The notes under the pieces are model-generated. The model saw nothing but the letters and a program-made list of their open reading frames with translations, was not told where the DNA came from and made no database searches. Shown in pieces: positions 34,540 to 36,932 of a stretch of 64,000 bases of DNA; within the stretch, counting starts at the first letter, position 1; each line of letters starts with the position of its first letter. The DNA is from an uncultured Flavobacteriales bacterium (GTDB lineage Bacteria > Bacteroidota > Bacteroidia > Flavobacteriales_E > Vicingaceae). The DNA lies in assembly GCA_905479915.1 (NCBI GenBank), contig CAJQOH010000020.1:1-64000 (forward strand). Reading direction: 5' to 3'. The position numbers and the translations under genes were made by a program.

Positions 34540-35529
34540 ATGAAAACTCCAAAAACACATCCTGCAGTAAAATCTAACCTGCACCCAAAAAGTAAACATA
34601 GAGGGCGTTACAATTTTGAAGAACTCATTAAAAGTCACGCAGACTTAGCTCAATTTGTTAAAAAGAATGACTACGGAGATGAATCTATAGACTTCTTTAA
34701 TCCAGAAGCTGTAAGAGCTTTAAACACAGCTTTATTAAAACATTTTTATACGATTGATTTTTGGGAGATACCTGAAGACTACTTGTGCCCTCCTATTCCG
34801 GGAAGAGCTGATTACATTCATCATATTGCTCAATTATTAGGAGAGAGTAACTACGGCAAAACTCCTACCGGTAGCCACATTACATGTTTAGATGTTGGTG
34901 TTGGTGCAAACTGTATTTATCCAATTATCGGGACAAAAGAGTACGGGTGGTCCTTTATTGGAAGTGATATTGATGAAAAAGCTATTGAGAATGCTCAAAG
35001 TATAATTGATAAGAATTTCTCTTGTCATCCTGAGCCTGTTGAAGGAAAAAGAAAAATTGAATTAAGACATCAACCAAAAGCAAATGATTTGTTTTACAAT
35101 GTAATTTCTAAAGAAGAACAAATAGATATAACAGTTTGCAACCCTCCTTTTCATTCTTCAGCAGAAGATGCTGCTCAAGGAACTCAACGAAAGATTAAAA
35201 ATTTAAAAGGAGGAAAACCCACTAAAGCAGTTAAAAACTTTGGAGGAAAAAGTAACGAGCTTTGGTGTACAGGGGGAGAAAACAAGTTCGTTAGAAATAT
35301 GATTAAAGAGAGTAAGAAGTTTGGTAAATCTTGTTTTTGGTTTACCACTTTAGTCTCTAAACAAAGTAATTTAAAAAGCATCTACAAATCTTTAGAAAAC
35401 GAAAAAGCTGTTGAGGTAAAAACGATAGCTATGGGACAAGGCAATAAAACAAGTAGAGTTGTTGCTTGGACCTTTTTAACGCCTACAGAACAAAAGAACT
35501 GGCGTGATAGTAAGTGGAAAAAAGATTAA
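34540..35529 (+). CDS. rlmF: 23S rRNA (adenine(1618)-N6)-methyltransferase with a REP-encoded insert
   Basis: 329 residues. [22 protein letters not shown] is the usual N-terminus, [15 protein letters not shown] the SAM loop, [13 protein letters not shown] the acidic loop, and CNPPFHSS the catalytic motif. It modifies A1618 of 23S rRNA. Between the acidic loop and the next strand there is an extra stretch [21 protein letters not shown] is the peptide produced when a 'gtcatcctgagcctg' REP sequence is read in frame. The rest of the protein is intact, so the insert is probably tolerated in a surface loop. Convergent with sdaA, overlapping by four bases. Confidence 0.95.
35021..35050 (+). repeat. 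REP-like repeat inside rlmF
   Basis: TTGTCATCCTGAGCCTGTTG followed by AAGGAAAAAG is a known bacterial REP word, here within coding DNA and in frame. It adds about 8-12 residues (CHPEPVEG and flanks) to the methyltransferase. Confidence 0.8.
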
Positions 35530-36932
35530 CACTCAGAAACGGCAACTGAAATATTCACAGCCAACCCACCCTCTGAGGTTTCTTTAAACTTATCGCTCAT
35601 TGCTTCTGCTGTTTCTTTCATTGTTTTAATGACTTCATCCAACGTTACCTTAGCTGATTCTGGGTTTCCTGCTAAAGCGATTTGTGAAGCAGTAATGGCT
35701 TTCATTGCCCCCATAGTATTTCTCTCGATACAAGGAACTTGGACCAATCCCATAATCGGATCACAAGTTAAGCCTAAATGATGTTCCATTGCAATTTCTG
35801 CTGCTTGCAGTACTTGCTGAGACGATCCTCCCATACAATACGTTAATCCTGCTGCAGCCATTGCTGAAGATACTCCAATTTCTGCCTGGCACCCTCCCAT
35901 TGCTGCAGATATTGTTGATCCTTTTTTGAACAAAGAACCTATCTCTCCAGCTACCAATATAAATTTCTTAATAGCCACTGATGGAGTCTCACAAAAGCAC
36001 AACATATACAACAATACTGCTGGAATAACACCTGCAGCACCATTTGTTGGCGCAGTTACAATCCTACCAAAAGAAGCATTTTCTTCATTTACCGCTAAAG
36101 CAAAACAACTTACCCACTTCGTTACGCTAGAAAATGAATTGTTACAGGTCTTTATAGCAGCTATCCACTCATCTTCTGAAGTGTATTGTTTATCTGCTAT
36201 TAAATCTACATTAATATTAAAAGCACGCCTAACAACATTTAGACCTCCTGGTAAAATGCCATTTTTATGGCAACCGTTATAAATTGAAGCTTTCATTGCA
36301 GACCACAATTCAATAACCTCTGAATCAATTTCTTCCTCAGATTTTAAGGCTAGCTCATTCTGATAAACAACGTCATAAATATCAAGATCAGAATTTTTCA
36401 TGTGTTTTAACAAATCGTTTTCACTTGCTATTGGATAAGGAAAGACTTTAGTATTCTTAACCTGTTCCTCATTTTGACCTTCTTGAACTACAAATCCTCC
36501 ACCAATTGAATAGTAAGTCTCCTCAATTTTTAACCCATCCTTAAATTTAGCTATCAAAGTCATCCCATTTGGATGGTATGGCAATTTTTCTTGAAGAAAT
36601 TCAATATCCACAGAAGGATCAAAATCTATTGACTGCGCTCCATTAACATTCAATCTTTTATTAACGTTTATCTCCTCAATGTATCTGTCAATCTTATTTA
36701 CAGCAATTGTTTTTACATCATAACCTGAAAGGCCAAGTAGAATAGCCACATCTGTTCCATGGCCTTTACCAGTTTTAGATAAAGATCCATATAATTTAAC
36801 CTTAACAGATGTAAGCGCTTTATCTTCAACTTTATTTAAAAATTGTTGTGCAGCAACCCAAGGTCCCATAGTATGAGAACTTGAAGGACCTACTCCAATT
36901 TTAAAAATATCAAAAACACTTATCTGTTCCAT
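35526..36932 (-). CDS. sdaA: L-serine ammonia-lyase (serine dehydratase)
   Basis: 468 residues, the single-chain form with beta and alpha domains fused. The N-terminus [21 protein letters not shown] is diagnostic. The alpha part has [32 protein letters not shown] and [19 protein letters not shown], which supply the iron-sulfur-cluster cysteines. It converts L-serine to pyruvate and ammonia and is oxygen-sensitive. It has its own upstream region, divergent from the DUF4173 gene. Confidence 0.96.

Follow-up and report, generated by a model that had tools for sequence, protein, structure and literature searches.

An in-frame TGTC-tagged hairpin repeat in rlmF belongs to a recurrent set of coding insertions in a genus of Bacteroidota

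The window, a stretch of 64,000 nucleotides from the genome of an uncultured Flavobacteriales bacterium, contains a gene for the 23S rRNA methyltransferase RlmF, whose reading frame runs uninterrupted through a short palindromic repeat (Table 1). The gene product matches the PF05971 profile with 374 bits and the RlmF equivalog model NF008725 with 433.5 bits (cut-off 302), and it retains the NPPF motif (residues 201-204) as well as other invariant residues of the alignment. The end of rlmF overlaps by four bases (35526-35529) with that of a convergent open reading frame on the reverse strand (35526-36932), whose product looks like an L-serine dehydratase.

Table 1. Features of the rlmF locus (window coordinates) and other genes of the genus that carry the repeat
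Feature	Position or genome	Strand	Details and evidence
rlmF, 23S rRNA (adenine(1618)-N(6))-methyltransferase	34540..35529	+	329 aa, zero internal stops; ORF, PF05971, NF008725
TGTC-tagged hairpin repeat TGTCATCCTGAGCCTGTTGAAGGA	35023..35046	+	in-frame CHPEPVEG, residues 162-169, net +7 aa
5' tag TGTC of the rlmF copy	35023..35026	+	TGTC in 153/154 copies
5' stem arm TCCT	35028..35031	+	pairs with 35043-35046; stem covariation, 61 copies
3' stem arm AGGA	35043..35046	+	sequence and stem covariation
Chorismate synthase (aroC) with repeat	G027, G017		family match
BioF (bioF) with repeat	G017; G027 by alignment		family match
SerA-like dehydrogenase with repeat	G019, G017, G026		family match
SpoIIE-type phosphatase with two copies	G018		family match
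MqnA-like menaquinone biosynthesis protein (mqnA) with repeat			family match
IcmF (icmF) with inverted pair of copies			family match
HMG-CoA-synthase-like protein with repeat			family match
Glycosyltransferases with repeat			family match
Type I restriction specificity subunit (hsdS) with repeat			family match
RlmL-like methyltransferase fragment with repeat			family match
Flavoprotein with repeat			family match

The repeat word reported in a first-pass annotation of this DNA spans positions 35022-35041 of the forward strand, in the frame of rlmF. The rlmF copy departs from the consensus core at one point, GTT for GTC, a synonymous change (Val), and its outermost pair is broken, with A 35027 facing A 35047. 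When the protein is aligned with orthologs from the genus, the family and other Bacteroidota, the CHPEPVEG block is absent from all of the approximately 90 relatives that span the site. Over the stretch bounded by fixed flanks, the window protein counts 36 residues and these relatives 29, except for one with 28 and two (L075 and L077) with 34, in which an unrelated insertion of five residues lies at the very same site; the loop thus accepts a gain in length. As best read from the sequences, the element appears to occupy the place of a single residue, usually Leu in the relatives, at a net gain of 21 nucleotides, and its boundaries are approximate to the base because even the nearest ortholog (L010 and L073, which are one gene) shares 81-83% identity. 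Since this ortholog has no insert, the insertion post-dates the split between the two, and this split is the only bound on its age. The rlmF copy was found in one species only. A contig filed as Actinomyces viscosus (L092, CALPVI020000184.1) also encodes a Bacteroidota-type RlmF, with 58% identity, and the bin is therefore probably mislabelled or contaminated.

The repeat is dispersed through the draft genome (3.57 Mb, 74 contigs), which we searched by pattern. A 14-base word of the element, TTGTCATCCTGAGC, occurs once in the window, where 0.01 matches are expected, and four times in the genome, in which the word and the patterns read backward gave no match. A strict pattern yields 4 genomic copies with at most two mismatches and 8 with at most three, and a looser one, which admits a longer-loop variant (CTGAGCGGAGTCGAAG), yields 16, nearly all of them intergenic. 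Copies are found in 13 of the 14 genomes of the genus, among them the sister species G017, with 90 by one pattern and 143 by another; 154 of the 185 distinct copies lie outside open reading frames of at least 120 residues. Among 395 genomes drawn evenly from the Bacteroidota, 10 contain an exact consensus pattern, with one to four copies each, so that a high copy number is a trait of some species of the genus. Literature searches with words of the repeat, as DNA or as peptide, returned unrelated papers only.

Each copy begins with a tag, TGTC in all but one of 154 copies (CGTC in the exception), followed by a hairpin of eight stem positions and a five-nucleotide loop. The first pair is A-T, the second and third covary, and two positions face each other as G/A and A/G. 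The outer stem is attested by covariation in 61 copies that were read without conditioning on it: position 6:22 occurs as C-G, A-T, G-C, T-A and G-T, and 5:23 as T-A and C-G, with Watson-Crick pairing in 53 of the 61 copies for the former and in 54 for the latter, against means of 26 and 36 and maxima of 39 and 48 in 2000 shuffles. The inner stem (7:21 C-G, 8:20 T-A, 9:19 G/A, 10:18 A/G and 11:17 mostly G-C) is largely fixed by the search pattern. No conserved 3' tail, and no CCA, follows the hairpin in the 154 copies. Where two copies lie within 150 nucleotides of each other, they are inverted with their tags outward in 13 of 19 cases.

To judge what the insert means for the enzyme, we considered structural models and sequence conservation. 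An AlphaFold model of the window protein, built with a 34-row alignment, has a mean pLDDT of 86.8, and values below 50 are confined to residues 162-170. In it, the insert sits between helix 146-160, which follows the SAM acidic loop, and strand 173-177; for an insert-free ortholog, the model (mean pLDDT 89.3) places these two elements at 146-158 and 166-170. Every fold element of the ortholog model is present in that of the window protein, and by structure as well as by sequence comparison the fold resembles those of METTL16 and PsiM. The loop that bears the insert is thus predicted to be disordered and the methyltransferase fold to be intact, and the enzyme probably still methylates its target. 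Against the nearest ortholog, dN/dS is 0.07, with dS near saturation, so that the ratio averages mostly over time before the insertion. With L011 as the outgroup, the window protein has 22 unique changes and the nearest ortholog 15, a difference that is not significant. Relaxed selection on rlmF was considered, and these two measures do not support it. Based on the model, the motifs, dN/dS, the unique changes and the synonymous GTT, we favour the view that the insertion is tolerated and probably neutral. Across the family, a search of 46 genomes failed to find rlmF in 23, of which several are nearly complete, and the matches in G009, G019 and G030 (L018, L019 and L029) contain one internal TAA each, so that the gene looks dispensable there.

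The insertion in rlmF is not isolated; it belongs to a set of in-frame insertions that recur throughout the genus. Open reading frames of at least 120 residues contain 31 of the 185 distinct copies, although some of these frames are spurious or called from too early a start: four that overlap copies have no family match (L060, L151, L261 and L266) and were left out of the count of coding insertions, and in four more (L055, L240, L250 and L254) the copy is near the predicted N-terminus and may precede the true start. Table 1 gives genes with a family match in which the repeat lies. For AroC, BioF and the SerA-like enzyme, alignments show other species with the site empty; where several species have an insertion, it lies in the same loop, yet its orientation, reading frame and exact position vary from one to the next (aroC: L272, L277; bioF: L285, L291, L292; serA-like: L299-L302, L311). 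In BioF, for instance, the inserted peptides read SFDKLRMT in one case and CHPELVEG in another, and in the SerA-like enzyme TLRQAQGN as opposed to CHPELVEG and CHPKPVEE. Such sites also harbour other palindromes, namely CCGTCAGCTGACGG in L292 and CCGTCAATTGACGG in L311, and in L302 a TGTC element is split in two, with CCCCGATAGCTATCGGGG between the halves. Given these differences in orientation, frame, position and type of palindrome, the loops must have been hit more than once.

Much of the first-pass annotation is borne out by these results: the repeat is a dispersed and mostly intergenic palindrome, its word recurs in the genome, it is read in frame as CHPEPVEG, relatives lack the block, and the enzyme appears intact, with the insert predicted to lie after the SAM acidic loop and before the next strand. 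Two of its suppositions fare less well. Coding insertions are not uncommon here, given their recurrence in aroC, bioF, serA-like, mqnA, icmF, hsdS and other genes, and recent movement finds no backing in a copy that has the GTT change and an unpaired outermost stem position, and whose age is limited by the split from an ortholog of 81-83% identity.

The surroundings of the copies show a further pattern. Among 153 copies of the genus, 15 have the 5' half of another element immediately at their left and a 3' half immediately at their right (Fisher p 3e-7), and 19 are framed by a five-nucleotide outer stem with its exact reverse complement, compared with a mean of 4.1 and a maximum of 10 for shuffled flanks and with 0-1 further out. 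The overall complementarity of the flanks is 14.5, against 11.5 (SD 0.24) for shuffled pairs. Copies therefore tend to lie in the loops of other hairpins, either because they insert into exposed hairpin loops or because whole compound units are copied. Nested copies with matching outer stems are seen in the genus (L044, L047, L186, L195, L201, L202, L244, L253 and L260), with an outer hairpin of the TGTC or the CGTCATTGCGA type, as well as in the genome of the window itself (L036 at C71:10750 and L042 at C23:22722); L201 is nested up to three levels deep. Such nesting is not significantly indicated for the rlmF copy. A former hairpin loop at this site was considered and rejected, as the complementarity of its flanks, 13, is reached by 28% of shuffled flank pairs, and the alignment of the nearest rlmF orthologs has no palindrome at the insert site.

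Taken together, the in-frame repeat in rlmF is real, and the kind of event is already described in other bacteria. We consider it very probable that a TGTC-tagged repeat of the CGTC/TGTC kind inserted in forward orientation into a tolerant loop of rlmF and persisted there as nearly neutral. The hairpin repeat would have entered the loop that joins the helix following the acidic loop to the strand beyond it; its net gain of 21 nucleotides preserved the frame, in which the element is open and reads CHPEPVEG. As the site is a length-tolerant surface loop, RlmF would still fold and probably still methylate, and the copy would have persisted because it was nearly neutral, whereas insertions elsewhere that broke a frame would be purged. 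It seems unlikely to us that the insertion weakened or inactivated the enzyme and that the gene is an early pseudogene with its stops still to come; the apparent dispensability of rlmF in the family and the slight excess of unique changes would agree with this, but the open frame, the conserved motifs and the low dN/dS speak against it, as do the predicted disordered loop, which lies away from the fold elements, and the fact that L075 and L077 tolerate an unrelated insertion there.

Conversely, the extra residues might be a loop with a function, kept by selection, and not a neutral remnant. Several species do carry the repeat in one and the same loop of AroC, of BioF or of the SerA-like enzyme, and the sole core change of the rlmF copy is synonymous. 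Yet the parallel insertions differ in orientation, frame and peptide, so that no peptide is conserved among them, and the rlmF copy was found in a single species and sits in a loop that is predicted to be disordered; we regard selection for this loop as very improbable. An artefact of assembly or binning, for which the draft state of the genome leaves room, or a chance resemblance to the repeat is hardly credible, considering the expectation for the window, the empty backward control and the independent parallel cases in other assemblies. For the insertion in a tolerant loop, we infer near-neutrality and retained activity of RlmF. A wider proposition is that, in this uncultured genus, a TGTC hairpin repeat without its own transposase inserts preferentially into the loops of existing DNA hairpins, including those of its own kind, and repeatedly supplies new surface loops of enzymes at the same sites across species and in either orientation, the rlmF copy being one product; this we put forward tentatively, as a doubtful though conceivable extension.

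These observations bring a genus of Bacteroidota into the group of lineages for which palindromic repeats have been recorded within enzymes that apparently work. The AroC, BioF and SerA-like cases represent natural parallel experiments on the tolerance of protein loops to foreign sequence, and the finding that copies nest in the loops of hairpins is relevant to how REPs of the CGTC type can move when no transposase is known for them.

By its tag and geometry, compared with the published description, the repeat has its place in or beside the CGTC/TGTC super-family of REPs (Di Nocera, De Gregorio and Rocco, 2013; PMC3733652). In that description, the CGTC tag is often changed, with TGTC and CCTC as accepted variants, the stem of the hairpin measures 8-9 bp, its first pairs being A/T, the loop has 4-5 nucleotides, and a short, unpaired 3' tail, mostly CCA, fits most but not all members; a dedicated transposase is absent, with no transposase gene flanked by copies, and some families are inserted within palindromes (PMC3733652). 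The genus repeat shares the TGTC tag, the inverted pairs and the intragenic copies, and likewise it is dispersed and mainly intergenic, flanks none of the Y1_Tnp genes found in the genus and, like some CGTC families, tends to lie within palindromes. Its hairpin agrees with that description in part, in the A-T start of the stem and the five-nucleotide loop. Unlike CGTC REPs, the repeat has no CCA tail, hence our wording 'in or beside', and its stem is broken by the two facing G/A positions. Intragenic REPs, too, are known from a number of species; in Xanthomonas, for example, two recB genes have an insertion at roughly equivalent positions (PMC3733652), which is why we regard the kind of event as known.

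The repeat resembles GTAG REPs with their RAYT transposases as well, in that both are short, tagged, dispersed and mostly extragenic hairpins, but it differs from them in its TGTC tag and in that no transposase gene of the genus has flanking copies. The genome of the window has four Y1_Tnp matches and the genus 25, and none of them has a copy within approximately 1.5 kb on either side; apart from matches that are weak and chance-like, their flanks show only the separate CGTCATTGCGA repeat. Mobilisation by a RAYT, with which the first-pass annotation had associated the element, is thus unsupported, and its designation as a REP holds for a tagged hairpin of the CGTC/TGTC type but not for a classical GTAG/RAYT element. 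Movement would presumably depend on a transposase or a single-strand DNA process acting in trans. Finally, the insertions are reminiscent of the Rickettsia palindromic elements, several of which lie in frame in protein genes, RPE-4 and RPE-6 among them being CGTC repeats (PMC3733652): in both systems, short palindromes are read in frame within open genes for known enzymes. In contrast to the Rickettsia elements, the repeat described here has a Bacteroidota host and another sequence, its coding copies are seen at the level of gene sequence, and in rlmF it is a single 24-nucleotide element that adds seven residues to its protein.
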